Assembly (NCBI RefSeq): GCF_965363235.1
Contig: NC_134850.1
Location: 40,544,602-40,608,601 of the forward strand
DNA from: Mytilus galloprovincialis
Lineage: Eukaryota; Mollusca; Bivalvia; Mytilida; Mytilidae
Direction: 5' to 3'
Length of the DNA stretch: 64,000 bases
This document shows positions 2,772 to 59,700 of this stretch, piece after piece (position 1 is the stretch's first letter; every line of letters starts with the position of its first letter). The notes under the pieces were generated by a model that saw only the letters and a program-made list of their open reading frames with translations, made no database searches and was not told where the DNA came from. A program made the position numbers and the translations under genes.

Positions 2772-34659
<31,888 letters not shown>

Positions 34660-41500: not shown

Positions 41501-44500
41501 TATTTAAAAATAAATTTTCCTGTCTAAAATTGAGGACAAGAAATTGTGTGCTTAAAAATAATTATTGTGAATTTCACAAACACTTTCAGCATTCATATAA
41601 ATTAGTATTGCTCAGTTGCACTAGTTGTGTAAACCATAGAGTACTTGCTAACCATAGATAAAAATAAAAGGAATATAACATCAGACCAATTTTAAAGAAT
41701 TACCATTGCTCATCCAACACCCCAAAGTTATCCTACCAACTGTAAACACATGTTTTGTATGCCCCCGTTGTAGCAGAGGAGGCATTAAGTTTCACCCTTG
41801 TCTGATTCTATGTACATTCCAAAATTGGTTTCCGTTCTCTAACTTGAGTTTGCCTCAACCAAATGTTATGACACTTTTACACAATGCTTTTTACCACAAA
41901 ATACAGATCAAATTTGAATTTCGGTGGTGTCACTGTAACAGTTCTAGAGTTGTGTCCCTTTATAAAAAGAAAAATTGCTAAATTTTTAGTTTCTGTTCTC
42001 AAACTTAAGCTGCCTCAACCAAATATTTTAATCATTTGTCAAAATGTTGTTTATAGTGCCTTTTTCCAAAATATAATAAAAAGTATGGGTCACCACACTT
42101 TTTTCACGCTACATCAAACTTATACACAATGCTTATTTCCACAAAATACAGATCAAATTTGAATTTCGGTGGTGTCACTTTAACAGTTCTAGAGTTGTGT
42201 CCCTTTATAAAAAGAAAAATTGCTAAATTTTTAGTTTCTGTTCTCAAACTTAAGTTTACCTCAACCAAATGTTATGAAACTAACACACAATGCTAATTAG
42301 AATTATACAGATCAAGTTAGAATTTTTGTACCATAATTCTTACCGTTTTAGAGTTATGCCCCTTCATAAATGGAAAACTTACAAAATTTTTGGTTTCCAT
42401 GCCCTAACTTAAGTTTGCCTCAACCAAACATTATGAAACTTACACACAAAGCTTAACATCACAAACACAGATCAAGTTGAATTTGGGTAGTGTCACTTTA
42501 ACCATTGTCCAAACATTATGAAACCTATACACAATATTATACTTATTACCACGAAACTCATATCAAGTATAAATTTGGGTAGCGTTACTTTTATCGTTCA
42601 TGAGTTATTTCCTTTTATAATGTTGTATGCAAGCGGGGGCATCATCTGTGTCCATGGGGACACATTCTACATTTATTTTCCCCCAAGTTTTCCTATGGCT
42701 CTTTCTACTATTACTTTACAAATCAACCTTTTTATATGACTGCAAAAAAATATTTTGGGGTTCATATATTGCTTTGATGTTGTTGTGGTCGTTTGAATTC
42801 ACATTTGGTTTCTGAAAAATAACTTAAGTTTAAGTGAATTGATTTCCAATAAATTTTACAAGAAAGTTTAATACCACATAAGGAAGGTTGGGATTAATTT
42901 TTGTGGATATAGTACCATCAGTTTAGGAATTAGGGACAAAAACAAGCATTTTTCTAGTTTCCAGACAATAACTTGTAAGTATGGATATCTCTTAAATTGT
43001 ACAAGGTTCCATAATACAAAGGTAGGCTGAGATTGAGTTTTGGGGTAATTGTTCCAAGGGGGTTGGCGGTGGTCAAAAAGTATGGGTGATTATTATCAAG
43101 GGGGTAATTTTTTTTCAAAATTTTTCAAAATTTATTTAGAATATTTTGGAAAGTTTCAAGAAAAGAAAATATCTTTAAATTCATAGTATTGTGCAATAGA
43201 TTTTCAAGATCTTTGACCTCATATATTATGTGTCAGAAACCTATATTATGTCAAAAATTTGCCCACAATCCAAATTCAGACAGTATCAAGCTTGAATATT
43301 GTGTCCAAATTTGCCCCAACTGTTCATGGTTTGAACTCTGCAGTCGTATCAGGCTGTGCTCAGCAAAGCATTTTATTTAGATTTTATATGCTTACAAATG
43401 GGTCAGGATCCCTAATAGACCTTGAGATGAGGAACTCAGATGACGTAATTAAAAAAAATATTAGTCCGCCATACAATTGTGGATGCTGTGATTTTAAAAA
43501 TGGACATAAATGAACAATAAGAACTGTTTTATAGAGCTGGTGTGATGAGAAAAGAAAGATGTAGATTTGACCTGAAATAAATTATTAGAAAGGACAATTT
43601 TTTTATTGAATTTTATGATCCGAATTTTGGGATTATTTCATGAGGAGAGTGACATTTTTCACCATCTTCCGGGGTCCATCAATTTGCGAAAAAAGTAATC
43701 TCACTTGCCACCCCGAAAATTTAACCAGACATGTATAAATGTATCAGCTTCGATATGAGCCATCATACATGTTCAAGTAAACGATATGGACTGAGCAACG
43801 GAGGAAAACGTTACCATTACGGCCTATGGAGAATTAATTGTAAATGTATACCCAAATTAGAAGCTTAATTCCAGAAGTTTTCAGGCTGATTTATGGATGA
43901 TTTCACCTTGTACACCACCGAAAATGATGGTTAGTAGTTTTTTATTTATACCTTGTTATTATAAATGGTTTAAGATAAATATTATTGATAAAGATCAGCA
44001 AAAACTCAATGAAACTTTGCTTTTAAAATGCATTACTGGCACGGGGCTGAACACTTTTTTTAGGCACAATCATAACTTTGTTTACTTCCGAGAGATCCGA
44101 AAGGAATTTGTTTACTATATTGAAAAAGGCAAGAAACAACTTTTAAATATTATTAAATTGTAAGTAAACATGACACAATATAGTCTTTGTTATGTAATTA
44201 TCACTTCGGTCTACAGGAATACCTGATAATCAAGGGAGATAACACACTTCATACGAGTAAAGTGAGATACATCATCGCATGTGCTTTTATCCAATGATTT
44301 GACCCCTGGTCAGTAGATATCATATGCAAAAAAACAGAAAAAACATGTACATGTTTTAAGAAAATCATGAACTAATATTTTTAATGCACTTGAGCAAAAC
44401 AATAGATATTGTCATTTCTCAGTGAAAAGGGGGAGGGTCAAACCTTTTTGAAAACAATATTTCTGCACCTATTCAACTATTAAGCTAGTTAGCTACTACC

Positions 44501-47500
44501 CATTGCTTCTAAAATAAAAGGTTTAAATGAAGGTGACTAAGCCACAAGGGAGAAGCATTTGTCTTTCTTTGTGATTAAACTTTCAAGAATTAGATTTTTC
44601 TCTCTCAATAGTATTTCTGTATTTAAATCAAATGATAACACAGCCTGAGTAATTTTTTTGTCTTATTTCAGTTCCAGACATATCATTACTTTTTAACCTG
44701 AGATGGCAAACTAGAGGTTTTAAAAAGTCCTGAATAACTGGTAAGCATTTTGCTTTATTAGGCAAGCTCTAAATTGTTTATTTATGGTATTTATGCAATT
44801 GAAATTACAGTCGGTATGTTAAAAATATGCAAATATGAAAACTGTTGCTATGGTCTTGGTATTAAATGAAAAGGCTTAGTTACAGATCGTTTCGACTCAA
44901 TATTTCGAGTTAAATCTTGCGGTAACTGTTTCTCACGTAACACTGCAAACTATATTTAGCTCTATTTTGATCTGTCGTTATTTAATGACGCCATAATACA
45001 TGTGATGTCACAATGTTTCCTTTAAAACCTCATGTGGATTTCTCACTAATAAAAGGTTTTCACTGAAATACATGTTAAAAACATTTTTTCTCAAATAGAA
45101 TTATGTGAAAGGACAAGTTTTGAAAATTTGCACTATATTGCACTCTAATTATATGATAAGGATGACTTTCCAAGTAGTTAAGAGTGCTTTCCACAGTTTT
45201 AAATACCAGATTTCCACTAGTAAGAATAATTATTTTGGTGTTGGTTTTTTTATAAAATCTTCATTTTTGCATAATTTCTCTGTCAAAATGCACTTTAAGG
45301 CACAAGAAAATTTTATAGAATGCTTTAACAGGGTCTGTGTATTGTAATTAAAGGTTATAATCAGAAGTTTTGTCCTTGTTTTGACTAGTGAAGGTATTCT
45401 GGAAGAAATTAATTATACAAACACATTGTATTCAAAATAAATGAATATAGCGACGAAAGTGTCATTGCCGTATAGTGCTAAAACAACTTTATTTTTTTTC
45501 AGAAATGGACAAAAATACACAGATTTATTCAGAATGTTATACCGATGAAGATCACATAAAAATATTTGGAAAAATCAGAAGTATGAATTTCAATATTAGA
45601 AGCTTAATTCCAGAAGTTTTCAGGCTGATTTATGGATGATTTCACCTTGTACACCACCGAAAATGATGGTTAGTAGTTTTTTATTTATACCTTGTTATTA
45701 TAAATGGTTTAAGATAAATATTATTGATAAAGATCAGCAAAAACTCAATGAAACTTTGCTTTTAAAATGCATTACTGGCACGGGGCTGAACACTTTTTTT
45801 AGGCACAATCATAACTTTGTTTACTTCCGAGAGATCCGAAAGGAATTTGTTTACTATATTGAAAAAGGCAAGAAACAACTTTTAAATATTATTAAATTGT
45901 AAGTAAACATGACACAATATAGTCTTTGTTATGTAATTATCACTTCGGTCTACAGGAATACCTGATAATCAAGGGAGATAACACACTTCATACGAGTAAA
46001 GTGAGATACATCATCGCATGTGCTTTTATCCAATGATTTGACCCCTGGTCAGTAGATATCATATGCAAAAAAACAGAAAAAACATGTACATGTTTTAAGA
46101 AAATCATGAACTAATATTTTTAATGCACTTGAGCAAAACAATAGATATTGTCATTTCTCAGTGAAAAGGGGGAGGGTCAAACCTTTTTGAAAACAATATT
46201 TCTGCACCTATTCAACTATTAAGCTAGTTAGCTACTACCCATTGCTTCTAAAATAAAAGGTTTAAATGAAGGTGACTAAGCCACAAGGGAGAAGCATTTG
46301 TCTTTCTTTGTGATTAAACTTTCAAGAATTAGATTTTTCTCTCTCAATAGTATTTCTGTATTTAAATCAAATGATAACACAGCCTGAGTAATTTTTTTGT
46401 CTTATTTCAGTTCCAGACATATCATTACTTTTTAACCTGAGATGGCAAACTAGAGGTTTTAAAAAGTCCTGAATAACTGGTAAGCATTTTGCTTTATTAG
46501 GCAAGCTCTAAATTGTTTATTTATGGTATTTATGCAATTGAAATTACAGTCGGTATGTTAAAAATATGCAAATATGAAAACTGTTGCTATGGTCTTGGTA
46601 TTAAATGAAAAGGCTTAGTTACAGATCGTTTCGACTCAATATTTCGAGTTAAATCTTGCGGTAACTGTTTCTCACGTAACACTGCAAACTATATTTAGCT
46701 CTATTTTGATCTGTCGTTATTTAATGACGCCATAATACATGTGATGTCACAATGTTTCCTTTAAAACCTCATGTGGATTTCTCACTAATAAAAGGTTTTC
46801 ACTGAAATACATGTTAAAAACATTTTTTCTCAAATAGAATTATGTGAAAGGACAAGTTTTGAAAATTTGCACTATATTGCACTCTAATTATATGATAAGG
46901 ATGACTTTCCAAGTAGTTAAGAGTGCTTTCCACAGTTTTAAATACCAGATTTCCACTAGTAAGAATAATTATTTTGGTGTTGGTTTTTTTTATAAAATCT
47001 TCATTTTTGCATAATTTCTCTGTCAAAATGCACTTTAAGGCACAAGAAAATTTTATAGAATGCTTTAACAGGGTCTGTGTATTGTAATTAAAGGTTATAA
47101 TCAGAAGTTTTGTCCTTGTTTTGACTAGTGAAGGTATTCTGGAAGAAATTAATTATACAAACACATTGTATTCAAAATAAATGAATATAGCGACGAAAGT
47201 GTCATTGCCGTATAGTGCTAAAACAACTTTATTTTTTTTCAGAAATGGACAAAAATACACAGATTTATTCAGAATGTTATACCGATGAAGATCACATAAA
47301 AATATTTGGAAAAATCAGAAGTATGAATTTCAATATGGGTCAGGATCCCTAATAGACCTTGAGATGAGGAACTCAGATGACGTAATTAAAAAAAATATTA
47401 GTCCGCCATACAATTGTGGATGCTGTGATTTTAAAAATGGACATAAATGAACAATAAGAACTGTTTTATAGAGCTGGTGTGATGAGAAAAGAAAGATGTA

Positions 47501-48160
47501 GATTTGACCTGAAATAAATTATTAGAAAGGACAATTTTTTTATTGAATTTTATGATCCGAATTTTGGGATTATTTCATGAGGAGAGTGACATTTTTCACC
47601 ATCTTCCGGGGTCCATCAATTTGCGAAAAAAGTAATCTCACTTGCCACCCCGAAAATTTAACCAGACATGTATAAATGTATCAGCTTCGATATGAGCCAT
47701 CATACATGTTCAAGTAAACGATATGGACTGAGCAACGGAGGAAAACGTTACCATTACGGCCTATGGAGAATTAATTGTAAATGTATACCCAAATATCGAT
47801 TCCATTTCTCTTTATATAACTTATCCACTGATTAATTTTATACTATTTTCTGAAACTCCTATTGGATGTAAACAATTATCTTCCCTATGAAGATATTGTC
47901 ATTCAATCTGACATACTTAATAAGGTTGTGTAAATTAACCTGAGTTTTTTAAAAACATTAAATCACACAACTTACCATTTTGTTTTTTATTTTTGATAGG
48001 TGGATACAAGTATTCAGAAGACCGTGTAGTGAATGATGGTAAGGTGATCACCAGCAGAGGACCAGGAACAACTTTTGAATTTGCTTTGAAAATTGTGGAA
48101 AAATTGCAAGGAGCAGAGAAGGCCAATTCATTGGTCAGTCCAATGCTTGTGAAGATGTGA
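35276..48160 (+). CDS. PARK7: PARK7/DJ-1 orthologue, whole coding span (5 coding exons, 186 aa)
   Basis: Five exons with GT-AG borders join to 186 residues (human 189). DJ-1 is a dimeric DJ-1/PfpI-fold protein of cytosol and mitochondria, acting in oxidative-stress protection and in handling methylglyoxal-type damage. Visible here: [10 protein letters not shown] with Glu16 (human Glu18), CPGG at the oxyanion strand, AAICAG with the nucleophile Cys104 (human Cys106) on the elbow, and [13 protein letters not shown] near the C terminus. Cys44 matches human Cys46. Human Cys53 is Val51 and human His126 is Tyr124 (TSYP for THP). The start is the ATG giving [11 protein letters not shown], the family's N terminus. 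It runs opposite to FHAD1 from a shared promoter. Introns 1 and 4 carry many insertions. Confidence 0.96.
35373..36310. repeat. Interleaved inverted repeats in PARK7 intron 1
   Basis: Three inverted pairs can be read. A: near 35373-35415 with 36010-36050 (GAGGCAGGCATAACCTG type). B: 35491-35530 with 35911-35952 (AACGTTTCCGATTTTGGTTC). C: 35530-35710 with 36165-36306 (TATGGGGACGAAGTCCCC and GTAGAAAATTCAATAAAA). Pair C's second arm lies outside pair A's second arm, so the pairs interleave. GGGGACGAAGTCCCC is itself a palindrome. It includes a 24-base A run. Probably two MITE-like elements inserted and rearranged. Confidence 0.75.
36412..37471. mobile_element. TA-flanked inverted-repeat element (Tc1/mariner-like MITE) in PARK7 intron 1
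   Basis: Ends are about 38-bp inverted repeats starting AGGCAATAAGTCGAGTATGC, with a single-base indel between them, and TA on both sides (36410-36411 and 37472-37473). Inside the left end are about seven copies of a short ACAAATTCGGCACC-like word (36462-36590). The right part (about 37120-37395) is also similar to 42865-43045. No transposase frame, so non-autonomous. Confidence 0.85.
37490..38307 (-). pseudogene. 5'-truncated Penelope-like retroelement, GIY-YIG endonuclease remnant and 3' region
   Basis: On the minus strand 38307 to 37972 reads as a broken GIY-YIG C-terminal domain. The first part is [20 protein letters not shown], then [20 protein letters not shown], ending in a stop. After a frame change come [29 protein letters not shown] and a TAA at 37974. 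This layout (CxxC, IYVGQTG, late FWIKKL..GLN) is typical of Penelope-like retroelements. The following 480 bp is its 3' region, with GGCCGTAATGGCCGAAACG near 37515-37535. The reverse transcriptase part is missing. Confidence 0.8.
38308..38984. other. End of PARK7 intron 1, nothing recognised
   Basis: AT-rich intron sequence between the Penelope-like fragment and exon 2. No gene or clear repeat is visible. Confidence 0.6.
38985..39146 (+). CDS. PARK7: PARK7 exon 2 (residues 29-82)
   Basis: [20 protein letters not shown] to [19 protein letters not shown]; acceptor TTATTATAG, donor GTATCT, 54 whole codons. Contains the conserved Gly-Gly of the oxyanion region. Confidence 0.96.
39420..39797 (-). 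mobile_element. Partial element B in PARK7 intron 2 (reverse orientation)
   Basis: Ends with the reverse of the element-B left terminus (AGTGTGTGGTCTCTTGTTT, near 39779-39797, after GTAGGCGACACATGTC). It carries decayed body words such as TGTGACCTTGCC and GACCTTGATCATATTTATAT. The right-end hairpin is not seen. Confidence 0.7.
39869..39938 (+). CDS. PARK7: PARK7 exon 3 (residues 83-106, nucleophile cysteine)
   Basis: [20 protein letters not shown] then ICAG; Cys104 is the redox-sensitive nucleophile. Acceptor GGTATAG, donor GTATGG, leaving phase 1. A second CAG ten bases inside (CTGCAG at 39878) is not used because it breaks the frame. Confidence 0.95.
40373..40456 (+). CDS. PARK7: PARK7 exon 4 (residues 106-134)
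   Basis: [20 protein letters not shown] then MKDKMVE; acceptor TTTAAAG, donor GTAAAA, phase 1 in and out. Tyr124 stands where human DJ-1 has His126. Confidence 0.95.
41028..41290 (+). repeat. SINE-like dispersed repeat in PARK7 intron 4
   Basis: A compact segment from about CCCGCCGCATTTTTGCGCC to the tail GGTTGTTGTCTCTTTGGCAC and CCCCATTTCCATTCTCAATT. Degenerate tails of the same kind are at 20955-21035 and 51930-51998. I recognise the tail as common in bivalve sequence, but I cannot assign a named family. Confidence 0.65.
41758..42642 (+). mobile_element. Tandem-repeat element with GCCCCCG/CGGGGGC ends in PARK7 intron 4
   Basis: TATGCCCCCG on the left (41758) and the inverse CGGGGGCAT on the right (42634-42642). 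The body holds about four diverged units with CTCAACCAAATGTTATGA words near 41850, 42010, 42260 and 42420. No coding capacity. Its geometry (short inverted ends, tandem body) matches the other tandem-repeat elements here. Confidence 0.8.
43256..43380 (+). repeat. Fragment of a dispersed repeat next to the X-R-R-X block
   Basis: GTTTGAACTCTGCAGTCGTA and CAGGCTGTGCTCAGCAAAGC resemble a mollusc repeat I recall (a ..TCTGCGGTCGTATAAAGCTG.. type). The match is from memory and moderate. It stops shortly before the first X copy. Confidence 0.4.
43398..43857 (+). repeat. Direct repeat X, left copy (460 bp)
   Basis: Identical, as far as I can read, to 47335-47794 at a constant offset of 3937. Its ends are inverted (TGGGT .. 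ACCCA), LTR-like. It contains AATAAA near 43578 but shows no primer-binding site after it. Confidence 0.9.
43858..45596 (+). repeat. Tandem repeat R, copy 1 (1739 bp)
   Basis: Repeated directly as 45597-47336; the only difference I found is a T7 versus T8 run (near 45250 and 46990). It contains an 88-codon open frame (43897-44163) with no recognised similarity, and exon-like segments after TCTTATTTCAG (near 44670) and ATTTTTTTTCAG (near 45490). Confidence 0.93.
45597..47336 (+). repeat. Tandem repeat R, copy 2 (1740 bp)
   Basis: Near-perfect direct copy of 43858-45596. A 44-codon frame starting [20 protein letters not shown] (45505) crosses the R-R joint and ends in copy 2 (45639). At the R-X joint the same frame ends after a few codons. 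Confidence 0.93.
47335..47794 (+). repeat. Direct repeat X, right copy (460 bp)
   Basis: Second copy of 43398-43857. Beyond it normal PARK7 intron resumes, 206 bp before exon 5. AT stands at each joint of the X-R-R-X block. Confidence 0.9.
48000..48160 (+). CDS. PARK7: PARK7 exon 5 (residues 134-186 and stop)
   Basis: [20 protein letters not shown] then [15 protein letters not shown] to LVKM and TGA; acceptor TTTTGATAG, phase 1 in. The SRGPGT..EFAL motif is a DJ-1 hallmark. Confidence 0.96.
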
Positions 48161-53727: not shown

Positions 53728-56700
53728 CTGCAATGACAAAATATTATACAATTACTGTCTTTTGATGAGGTAAAAATGCGGTTTTATTGACTTTTGAAAA
53801 AATGATATTCACTGAGGCCGACGGCCTCAAGATCCAATTCATATAGAGAAACCTACTAAAATAATACCAATATGGAATAAACAATTTTATACCAGCAAAA
53901 AATTGACAGTTGTCAATAATGACCGTACATTTAGAAGCATAAATATTGATAGTGTTCAAGAAATATAGTTAGGCACATGTTTTTTTTTAATTCTATCTAG
54001 ATACATGCATCTGAAAAAAATAGAATTTTGGAAAACAATAAACTTGCAGGTTTCTATATGTTTCTATATTTGTCAGAATGAATTTAATGTTGTATGTTTA
54101 ATATATTGTAAATTCAGAAATGTTTGCATTTCTTTTTTTTTGTGAATTAAAAACAGAATAATTTTATAAATGGCAGATTTATTATTGTAAATCAAGAAAA
54201 TACTACATGCAATTAATGATATCAAATTTAAAATGGGAGTTATTTTGGGGGATTGGGGGAAAACATACCCTTAAGCAATTTTGGTAATACATGTAGTAAG
54301 AACTTTAAAAAGGTATTGAATTTATAAAGTATTTGAAATAGCAAGAATCTTATTATCTTTGTCAAATTAAATCAACAAAGCACTTGGAATTATCTGCAAT
54401 TGTTTGAACTTTGTGTAAGGTATTGTAATGGCAACAAATGTGTTTAATTCCCATGCTTAGTTTGTGAAATTTTAAACTTAAAAGTTTTCAAATAATTTTT
54501 CCAATCCTAAACCTACATAAACTAGACAAAACTTGTATTGCCTCTTGAAAGTAAAATTAAAGTTTTTAATTATTTATTATTCTTTAAAAGCATGAAAATT
54601 ATTGTTTCGGTCAGATTAATATATGACATACCAAAGCATTCTTATACTCTGGTTTTCCATCAATTATCTTCATGTTCTGTACTCTGAAGTATAAAAAAAA
54701 ACAAGTAATGATTAATACAAATAGTATAGGAAATTGAATACAAAGAATCATTTTTTTTTTCAACCTGTATAGTATAGAAAATTGTATACAATCATTACAA
54801 AGAATAATATTTAATATCTTTTCAACCTGCATAGTATAGAAAATTGAATACAAATAATATTTATATCTTTTCAGCCAACATAGTATAGACAATTTTATAC
54901 AAAGAATAATATTTAATATTTTTTTAACCTGCTGTGAAATCAAAGTGTAGCGAGGAAGACATAGTTGGGTGTCTTGTCAGAGCACAGATAATTTAATCAA
55001 AATACATTTCTCAGCTGTTGCATTTTTTTTTATATGTGTACAAGTAGCTAATGGTGAGCTCAGGTCCAGTTCCCAATAGATAATTCATTCTCCTACCTTT
55101 TTCTATAACTCCATTAATTGTTCATGTATAAATAAAAGAACCTCCCATTTGAAGAACTATTGCATTTTTTCCAATTTGTACATTTTCCAGTAGTATTCTT
55201 TTTCTCACAATCATAAATATGTATGAATGAACCATGCATATCTGTCATTACTACAGCTTACTCTTACACTTTGAGTGAAACCCTCTTTTGTAAATGAATC
55301 ATTTTTTTTAAAATAAAAAACATTTAATTGTGCATTATTTAAAATGACTCTGTTTACATGAACGCTTAGAGATGAACAAAATATTATGAAAGACTTAATA
55401 GTTAACATTTATCCATATAAAAGTAAAGATCATCTATTAACCAAATTTAATAAAAATGCTTTTTCAAGTAGGGGCTGAATTTTTGGCCCATTATTCTCTA
55501 TTCTTATAATTTAGAACCTCTATTCTTATTTCTTTATTTGTTTTATACGTTTTTCTTTGCTCTTTATTCTTTGTCCATTATTTTCTTTTTTCTCTGTAAA
55601 CCTAATTTAGGTCTGTTTAAGGTGCAAAATACTAAAGTAATACTTTACCTTGTCTTTGCAATATCTGTTGGCATTGATGCAATAGTTGTAACTAAACCAC
55701 TAAACATACTGGAGACAAAATGTAAGAAAATACCCTCTCCAAAATATCCTGAAAATATAAAACCATTGTTTAATACGCAGAATGCACAAATTTCCTACAT
55801 CCACCACAAATAAACAAAGCCTCTTATGTTGAAATTAAAATGTTCTGTAACTGGCCGTGTATAGGGCGTACCCCCTTCCTATCCCCCAAAAGGGGTCTAA
55901 TTGGGGGGTTCTGATCCTGGATCCCACTTACTGTTGTCAGATTCCTGTTTCCTGTTTACACTATGTACGTAAGCAATTTTCATTTTTTTTTGTAATTTCC
56001 TGTGTCCTGCTAGATTTTATTTTCTGTTATCACGGCACAATAATTTGACTTTCAGGTGTCACATTAACAAAATAAATCTGCAATCCAATTGATAACCACC
56101 AAAAAATCGTGAAAAAAAAGTGAAACTGCGAGCTACTGCTCACTGATGATACCCCCGCCGCAAGAGGATAATATTAATAGTGTAAAAATATGCAAGTGTT
56201 CGGTAAACAGGAAGTTGTCGAGTGATGAATCTGAAAACGCATCACACGGTATAGCTGACTTATATAAATCCTGAAACCAAATTTCAGAAATCCTTGTATT
56301 GTAGTTCCTGAGAAAAATGTGACGAAAATTTTCAAGTTGGCTATCATGTGTAAAATCATACAAGTGTTCGGTTAACAGGAAGTTGTCGAGTGATGAATCT
56401 GAAAACGCATCACACGGTATAGCTGACTTATATAAATCCTGAAACCAAATTTCAGAAATCCTTGTATTGTAGTTCCTGAGAAAAATGTGACGAAAATTTT
56501 CAACTTGGATATCATGTGTAAAATCATACAAGTTTTTTCGGTAAACAGGAAGTTGTCAAGTGATGAATCTGAAAACGCATCACACGGTATGGCTGACATA
56601 TATAAATGTTGATACCAAATTACAGAAAGGGTGGATGTGTAGTTCCTGAGAAAAATGTGACGAAAGTTTCATGGGACGGACTGACTGACGGACTGACGGA

Positions 56701-59700
56701 CGGACTGACAGACAGAGGTAAAACAGTATACTCCCCCTTTTTTAAAGCGGGGTATAACTAAAGCGGGGGTATAAAAAGTTGAAAAAAAAAATTAAAAAGT
56801 AGTTCACTGTTAAAATCCTTTGACAGGGACCTTTTAAAATATGTGAATTATGCAAAAGATCCTAAGTTAATGAACGATTATTGAATACCCATGGCCAGTA
56901 ACATTCATGGAAATGAGAAACACAATGCTTTACCACTTCAAACCAAATACCATAGACTTATCATATATGGTTCCCTTTAAACTATGCAAACATTTTAAAG
57001 TCTTTAAACCATGATGAGAGGGTGTGCAGCCATATATTCTCCATTCAAATGAAATGTGCCAATGCTGATAAACTGCATACCAAATATCATTAATTTAATA
57101 TTATTGGTTCATCGTAAACTGACTCTATCACATACTAACACATTGAAGCCGCCACCCAATAATTTCATGGTTAAATCTCATAAAAGTTAGGAATGTAATT
57201 TGGAAGAATGAAACTAAAATGTTTTTTCATGTTTCTAAAAGAGACAGTTATTTGTGCAATTTCTATTTTTTATGATATCCGGTGCAAAAACATTCCAGTC
57301 AATTAACAAATACTTAAATTTACAGCTTTTACATTAATGCTAGCAAGACAAATCTTTGTTTGGCTTGCTTGCTTTGTTTGTATCAATGTTTGCTCAAGCA
57401 TGGCAATTAAGATAGGCGGGATTTCAGCTTGTATACATCATACTTAAATTTTATTGGACGTTATGTTTGAGGTTATGGACACTTAATTTTAAAACATCAC
57501 ATGACAAATATTCTCACATGTTTCCTTACCTGTAAATAAACAATACAGTCAGGATTCTACTTCGTCAAAATTATCTCCCCATTACGGCAGTTCATTTTCA
57601 CAATCGTAGAAATGGAAACCAAAATTTTTTCGAAGATATGCATTTTCATCATCCAACTTAAATATTGTCGTCAAATACTTTTAGTAAAATAGCTATTCGA
57701 ACACACCTACTCTGATTTTGTGATTCATTGGATAGGTATTTCACTTGACCCCTACATTTAATCTTTTAGTATTGTGATTTTTTTATGTTATAAAGTCAAC
57801 CTGTAGCTTTGCTATATAAAAATGATAGAATCTGAAGCGAGATGATGTATCAAATACTCTTCCTTTGTACGTTTTCAAGACAAAATATTCATCTCAAACA
57901 CACCCTAACATAAAAAAAGGTGCACTCGATTTTCTCTTTTCGATACAATTGTTACCCATTTATTGGAATTTTTTCTTGAGTTACATAAATGAATGGGCAG
58001 ACATGGAAACAACTGAACTAATAGATTGATATGTTATAAAAAAAAAAACAATGTTAAGTTTATATTTTTCTTTCATTGACCAATTATTGTATTTTTTCAG
58101 GTGAGGAAACATGTGAGAATATTTGTCATGTGATGTTTTAAAATTAAGTGTCCTAAACCTCAAACATAACGTCCAATAAAATTTAAGTATGATGTATACA
58201 AGCTGAAGCCCCGCCTATCTTAATTGCCATGCTTGAGCAAACATTGATACAAAAAAAACAAGCAAGCCAAACAAAGATTTGTCTTGCTAGCATTAATGTA
58301 AAAGCTGTAATAGAATAAATTTCTTTTAATCTACTGTACCTGTTTTCTTCAATTCTTCTTTAGCTTGAGAATATGAAGCTAACTGTGCTGCATTAACTAC
58401 CATAGCTCTTGCAACAGTTGGCTGCCATCCCTGTAAAAATTAACAAACTATGGTTTCGACTGATTGACAAGGTTTAACTATCGTAGGAGTCAATGGTCAG
58501 AGTGACCTGACTTTGGTACATTTCTATTTGAAAATTTTTTTGTTCTTCAGACGTATTTGAGTGTTACAATTTATTACAATGTAGATTATAAAATGGATAT
58601 GTAGAGTTATAATAAATGAGAAAGCAATGCTGCAACCTAATTTTTTTCTGGTAAAAATTAAGAATATTTTTAAACAAACAAATCTTTATGTTAGTTGGCA
58701 AACTATTGTTTTTGCAAAAGTGGTGGATAAATTCAAAATTTATCCCAGGAAAACTGTTGTGTAGTGTTTAATCTTACCCTCCACATAGTTAAAATTCCCT
58801 CTTCTGAAATAATTCTAGATATAGCATTAAATACTCCAGTGTAACCTCTTCTTTGGTCAATAGGTAATCTGTAAAAGTTTTTGTAAAAAGTGCTCAACTG
58901 TAAATTTTAAAAGTATATAAGGGTTATACTCACATATTCTTTAAGCATTAGGGTACTTTATGATAGATGATATCCAATTTATATCATGTTTATATGTATC
59001 CCAAAATATCATATAAATTTAGATGGTAATAAGCCAAAAGTATTAGATAATTAGTTTGATATAGCCATTGAAATGAAAATATCAATCTGAACACAAAGAA
59101 ATGCAAATAAAAATCTATAGACACTGTGAAATCTTTATTAAGTCATAGGCTATACCCTTTTATGGATTTCCTTGGTACAGTATTTGGTTCCTTTGATTTT
59201 TAACTTCCTCTTCCTTACCTTCCATCAGCTGTCATTCTAATTAGACAAACTTCTGCTGGTGTTCCTACAAAGGCTCCTATACCACCAGCTGTACACCCCA
59301 TAAACAACTTTTGAAATGCATTTGGAGGCTTGCCCTCTCTGAAAAATACAATCATCCAGTTCTGACAAACATGTTGCATTTTGATGATTTGAAACAATTT
59401 GTTTAAATATGGTTAAAAAACAAATGCAATTCATACTTCACCAAATTCATTATATTTGTCATCATTAATACTTGAATGGTGTTTATCATTCAACATCTTA
59501 CAAATGTTAATAGTACAGATAAGAAAATTGATGGTCATATCAATCACTCATATTTCTATCACTCATTTTCATCTCATATGTTCAGTAGATGTCACCAAAA
59601 TGACAAAATTGTAATAATAAATGCAAGCAATAATTTCTGAATTTACAGTATCATCTTTCATAAAAAGTATTCATCTTCTCTCAAACATAGCAATCATGTA

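Follow-up and report, generated by a model that had tools for sequence, protein, structure and literature searches.

The X-R-R-X block described here lies in the window (the whole 64,000-nucleotide stretch of Mytilus galloprovincialis DNA that was analysed) and is a young non-autonomous copy of an abundant dispersed family. This X-R family is of the KolobokP type, a known kind of DNA transposon with the architecture LTDR-INT-LTDR, published in 2022 by Kojima and Bao (PMC9587614). X is the LTDR (long terminal direct repeat) of such a transposon and carries its ends; R is the internal region, without recognisable coding. Judging by the LTDR match, the anatomy, Pfam and motifs read by eye, on which the KolobokP placement rests, the block is very probably a member that lost its middle X. 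The loss itself probably took place in situ, after insertion.

Comparison within the window confirmed what had been noticed from the letters alone, namely an identical X at both ends and a tandem R with a single T-run difference. Positions 43398-43857 and 47335-47794 are identical, and the two 1.74-kb copies of R agree at 99.94%, with one T against a gap, at a run of T (near 45252 and 46991), as their only difference. The original length of 460 bp for X needs revision: it is true of the identical repeat, but X proper has 454 bp, and the extra AT and AAAT are matching flanks (Table 1). The block is far beyond chance. Nor is it peculiar to one spot of the assembly, because X/R units recur at other loci and R-R joints in five regions.

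Table 1 Features of the X-R-R-X block (window coordinates).
Feature	Position	Strand	Remarks
Left target-site duplication AAAT	43396..43399	.	Same as 47791-47794
LTDR 1 (X1), 454 bp, GGGTC...ATACCC	43400..43853	+	Identical to X2; 95.8% to both L050 LTDRs
Internal region copy 1 (R1), starts with X-flanking AAAT	43854..45596	+	99.94% to R2
R-R joint AATATT	45592..45597	.	Left flank AATAT retained, right flank AAAT missing
Internal region copy 2 (R2), AATAT at its end before X2	45597..47336	+	Comparison with R1
LTDR 2 (X2), 454 bp	47337..47790	+	Identical to X1
Right target-site duplication AAAT	47791..47794	.	Same as 43396-43399

Seven open reading frame pieces of X and R gave no match in Pfam. 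Rfam returned nothing near a gathering score, two small-RNA families appearing weakly and far below their cut-offs. Splice-like signals flank short open pieces within R (window 45490-45596 and 44670-44740), and close to the end of its INT the L050-type coding element described below has a comparable pyrimidine tract with a CAG; R may retain remnants of transcribed leader or tail sequence. A retrozyme was also considered and rejected, as no hammerhead match was found up to E 5 in 43300-47900.

A 52-residue peptide near the insertion matches 1p5f (DJ-1/PARK7-like, E 5e-13). The block sits just upstream of the apparent last exon of this DJ-1/PARK7-like gene (about 48000-48160), so the insertion is probably intronic. 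Elsewhere in the window we observed a 492-bp tandem repeat in three copies (4428-5937), a 168-bp repeat present at two places (56180-56669 and 12071-12403) and, at 57320-58310, an inverted repeat of 226 bp around a 539-bp loop.

A genome search for other X and R loci, suggested along with the original prediction, found several forms, all present in the 20 stretches read (19 loci and the window): X-R-X and solo X, and arrays that are either (X-R)n-X or contain R-R joints. A 24-base query for the left end of X, allowing one mismatch at most, located 414 places in the 1.38-Gb genome, a total that takes in the LTDRs of coding relatives; the reversed control gave 0. Searching with X itself yielded at least 40 matches (40 scored of 1337 candidates). 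The 100 left ends listed out of 414 form 37 clusters, of which 21 are singletons; this is an upper bound for solo X, because coding elements may also appear single. Neighbouring ends among these 100 are mostly one X-R length apart (2190-2205 in 41 of 63 intervals), followed by X-R-R (3940-3945, eight), X-X (464-465, three), X-R-R-R (5680-5684, two) and nine other intervals, the classes being assigned by spacing and a minority of the intervals read base by base. With R, the search located an array on C4 (75.29-75.39 Mb) with 29 units among the matches listed, spaced mostly by 2198 bases.

Divergence was compared over near-complete units free of N (47 X, 36 R). Copies of R inside one array are mostly near-identical (mean 0.013% over 36 pairs in C6; 0% over six pairs in C1b), against an average of 1.70% between loci, which makes a local origin of the X-R arrays probable. 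More variation, 1.45% in R (three pairs), was found in the C1 array at 126.99-127.01 Mb. Among the loci read, the closest to the R of the window is C4, with 0.06% difference. In one locus, L020, R is interrupted by a second transposon-like sequence that has inverted ends (about 3620-5380).

The family has coding relatives in the same genome. We found at least 150 matches to the nuclease family PF05551 (150 scored of 224 candidates) and none in 14 control genomes. Two of the six His-Me nuclease loci fetched carry an X-like LTDR (L046, 95.6% over 455 bp; L044, 78.7% over 442); in the other four (L045, L047, L048, L049) there is no X-like LTDR, merely short weak matches. A whole element of 5.1 kb, L050 (285-5395), is bounded by two identical LTDRs, each 95.8% identical to X over 455 bp. 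It holds a 749-aa transposase frame (PF20700, E 6.4e-59, a Pfam model named Mutator-like) and a 144-aa His-Me nuclease frame (PF05551, E 4e-13), the latter matching I-PpoI of the PDB directly but weakly (E 0.016). By eye, the transposase shows the motifs MDGT, TDGD, DTIH and CESVN as well as two Cys clusters, ordered as in the KolobokP paper.

The inner flanks, AATAT before the LTDR and AAATT after it, are common to X in R arrays and to the LTDR of the coding element. The right end of R resembles the INT end beside the L044 LTDR (71.6% over 102 bp, E 3e-11, low complexity masked). It also resembles the INT of L050 over about 95 bp at 69%, a match that vanishes on low-complexity masking, and most of R has nothing clear in common with that INT. 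Tandem arrays of I-PpoI-like nuclease elements, with periods of about 2.0, 2.2, 4.07 and 4.65 kb, were seen at C10:72.89-72.94 Mb, C1:63.79-63.81 Mb, C61 and C62, and further ones at C12:64.92 Mb, C11:77.88-77.91 Mb and C7:46.36-46.39 Mb.

The LTDRs of published KolobokP elements measure about 450 or 660 bp, their target-site duplications are 3-5 bp, and their ends are RR...YY (PMC9587614). The GG...CC ends of X and its 4-bp duplication fit both rules. Identical 4-bp duplications flank 13 of the 14 insertions with both ends read, and all 13 are ANNT. Ten of the eleven complete insertions are matched (AAAT, AATT, ATCT and ATTT twice each, AACT and AGAT once each), the sole mismatch being L020, flanked by ATCT and AAAT. 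The other three are the C1 array, counted as one, with AACT at both outer ends, L050 with AACT on both sides, and an X-10bp-X unit (L053, below) with ATAT. The solo X at L024 has its own ATTT duplication. Four rows with one end read or intact were left out of the count, and all are ANNT as well: L027 (AACT), L034 (AACT), L051 (AGTT, left LTDR end lost) and L052 (ACAT). One could equally assign the outer T and A to the element and call the duplication 2 bp; the product is the same.

Empty sites were judged at three loci. The hosts of L017 and L023 are satellite arrays, in which other units carry a single tetramer at the site. L025 is inserted in a dispersed repeat, and L024 holds an empty copy of that repeat (78.8% identity), again with one tetramer. 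The perfect terminal inverted repeat is 4 bp in X (GGGT) and 6 bp, with an imperfect extension, in the L050 LTDR. Two LTDR pairs stand in direct tandem, 10 bp apart, at L052 (C1:76287000-76288700) and L053 (C1:70543900-70545300), with the same 10-bp junction, AAATTATATT; the L053 unit has ATAT on both sides, so the two LTDRs may be mobile together. For their termini or target duplications, two other groups had been weighed from partial accounts, IS481EU and the PHIS transposons (Pangu, ANT target); both were dropped after the LTDR match to KolobokP.

The joints between neighbouring R copies look like footprints of X loss. At the loci read, the left flank of X beside R is AATAT in 35 of 36 joints and the right flank AAATT in 32 of 33. 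Since the inner flanks differ (ATAT left, AAAT right), many R-R joints reveal which side was lost. A clean exit of X with both flanks retained would give the joint AATATAAATT; this intact ten-base flank occurs at none of the 17 R-R joints read. They read AATAT (eight), AAAATT (four), AATATT (three), A (one) and AATATATT (one), with 4-5 bases lost in 15 of 17, nine in one, from both sides, and two in one. These joints come from fetched loci in five regions, and the minimum of independent events is the five types, because joints inside one array may copy one event. In the C11 coding array, five of the seven nuclease spacings are 4652-4661 and two are 4193; both of the latter are INT-INT, lacking the LTDR and five flank bases.

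KolobokP is reported as solo LTDR, (LTDR-INT)n-LTDR and LTDR-(INT)n-LTDR, and INT-INT was explained by LTDR excision that takes 1-5 flank bases, on one side per event (PMC9587614). Except for the nine-base joint, the losses observed here fit that rule. Of the three origins offered in the original prediction, the KolobokP anatomy and the joints favour the second, in which a non-autonomous element bounded by direct repeats lost its middle X. Alternatively, X may have been lost through recombination at its AT-rich flanks. Two odd joints stand apart: near 8900 of L031 AATAT is replaced by AATATATATT at one R-X joint, and in L059, of the same array, the R-R joint is the AATATATT one; perhaps they mark a reinserted X.

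A dimer could also have formed elsewhere or from a circle and been inserted ready-made as X-R-R-X, with no local loss of X; we regard this as possible but unlikely. The 4-5 bases missing at 15 of 17 joints would suit it, as Kojima and Bao liken the flank loss to the circle spacer of IS3 and IS256 elements (PMC9587614), and so would the zero substitutions between R1 and R2, compared with the difference from C4. However, several joint types occur inside long arrays together with X-R units, where excision in place is simpler. A non-autonomous LTR retrotransposon (TRIM or LARD), with X as LTR, R as interior and tandems made by recombination or template switching, is very improbable. Direct terminal repeats, a short target duplication, solo X, (X-R)n-X arrays and T-GGGT...ACCC-A ends that recall TG...CA all gave rise to the LTR-like look noted at the outset, but this look is misleading: the 25 bp beside X contain neither a TGG-type primer-binding site nor a polypurine tract (the latter by eye) on either strand, X serves as LTDR in an element that has frames for transposase and nuclease, and recombination between LTRs is not expected to give X-less R-R joints. 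Misassembly of a single X-R-X or of a heterozygous site, also raised originally, has hardly any credibility: copy counts are unsure at such high identity in assembly sequence, yet one T distinguishes R1 from R2, the joints are of five types in five regions, the assembler would have to drop X at a base-precise joint every time, and INT-INT is published in other bivalves.

Under the preferred reading, loss of the middle X in place, we would order the events as follows. An X-R-X monomer would have transposed into an ANNT target (here AAAT) and duplicated it, a step well supported by the anatomy, with transposase and I-PpoI-like nuclease presumably supplied in trans by an autonomous-type relative whose near-identical LTDR suggests that its enzymes act on X. 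Unequal exchange or a circular X-R unit could then have turned X-R-X into (X-R)2-X. Finally, the middle X would have been excised with its right-hand AAAT, joining R to R at the cost of one 4-bp flank. The sequence of steps and the route to multimers are our proposal from sequence comparison.

As far as the accessible text of PMC9587614 goes, the X-R family equals KolobokP in LTDR length, ends, target duplication, flank loss, coding partner and solo, multimer and INT-INT forms. KolobokP hosts are bivalves, Mytilus among them; non-autonomous oyster copies measure 1.7-3.3 kb, and coding copies carry a transposase and an I-PpoI-like nuclease (PMC9587614). The family may already be named among the 228 published KolobokP families. 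One-sided flank loss is itself already published (PMC9587614), and the unequal flanks found here merely ease its reading. Three differences emerge from the same text: the target is ANNT in all 13 matched duplications here, whereas KolobokP is given no strong preference; the perfect inverted repeat of X has 4 bp, compared with 11-18 bp at LTDR ends of oyster families; and the X-10bp-X units find no counterpart in the description (PMC9587614).

Another bivalve system, biv-TRIM, is alike in its terminal direct repeats, its solo and tandem forms and its hosts, Mytilus included, but differs, in the part of its description at hand, by repeats of 202-218 bp and an interior of 77-80 bp with a polypurine tract, and is classed as a retrotransposon (PMC6934838).

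The authors of KolobokP find its composite-like structure unlike other eukaryotic DNA transposons and leave the pathway open in the text we drew on (PMC9587614). The X-R family is abundant and young, its genome also holds a partner whose frames are open, and empty sites exist, so that their excision model could be put to a direct test. It is conceivable, though less likely than not, that the LTDR is an excisable, ANNT-strict module that leaves with one 4-bp flank, and that LTDR-10bp-LTDR units are mobile; if true, this would suggest that a eukaryotic composite transposon passes through a circular or abutted-end intermediate. Bacterial composite transposons and IS26 pseudo-compound transposons show a likeness in the direct mobile end modules around a cargo and in arrays that share modules. 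In these bacterial systems the end module encodes the transposase; X differs in having no recognisable coding, and its enzyme would come from another element.
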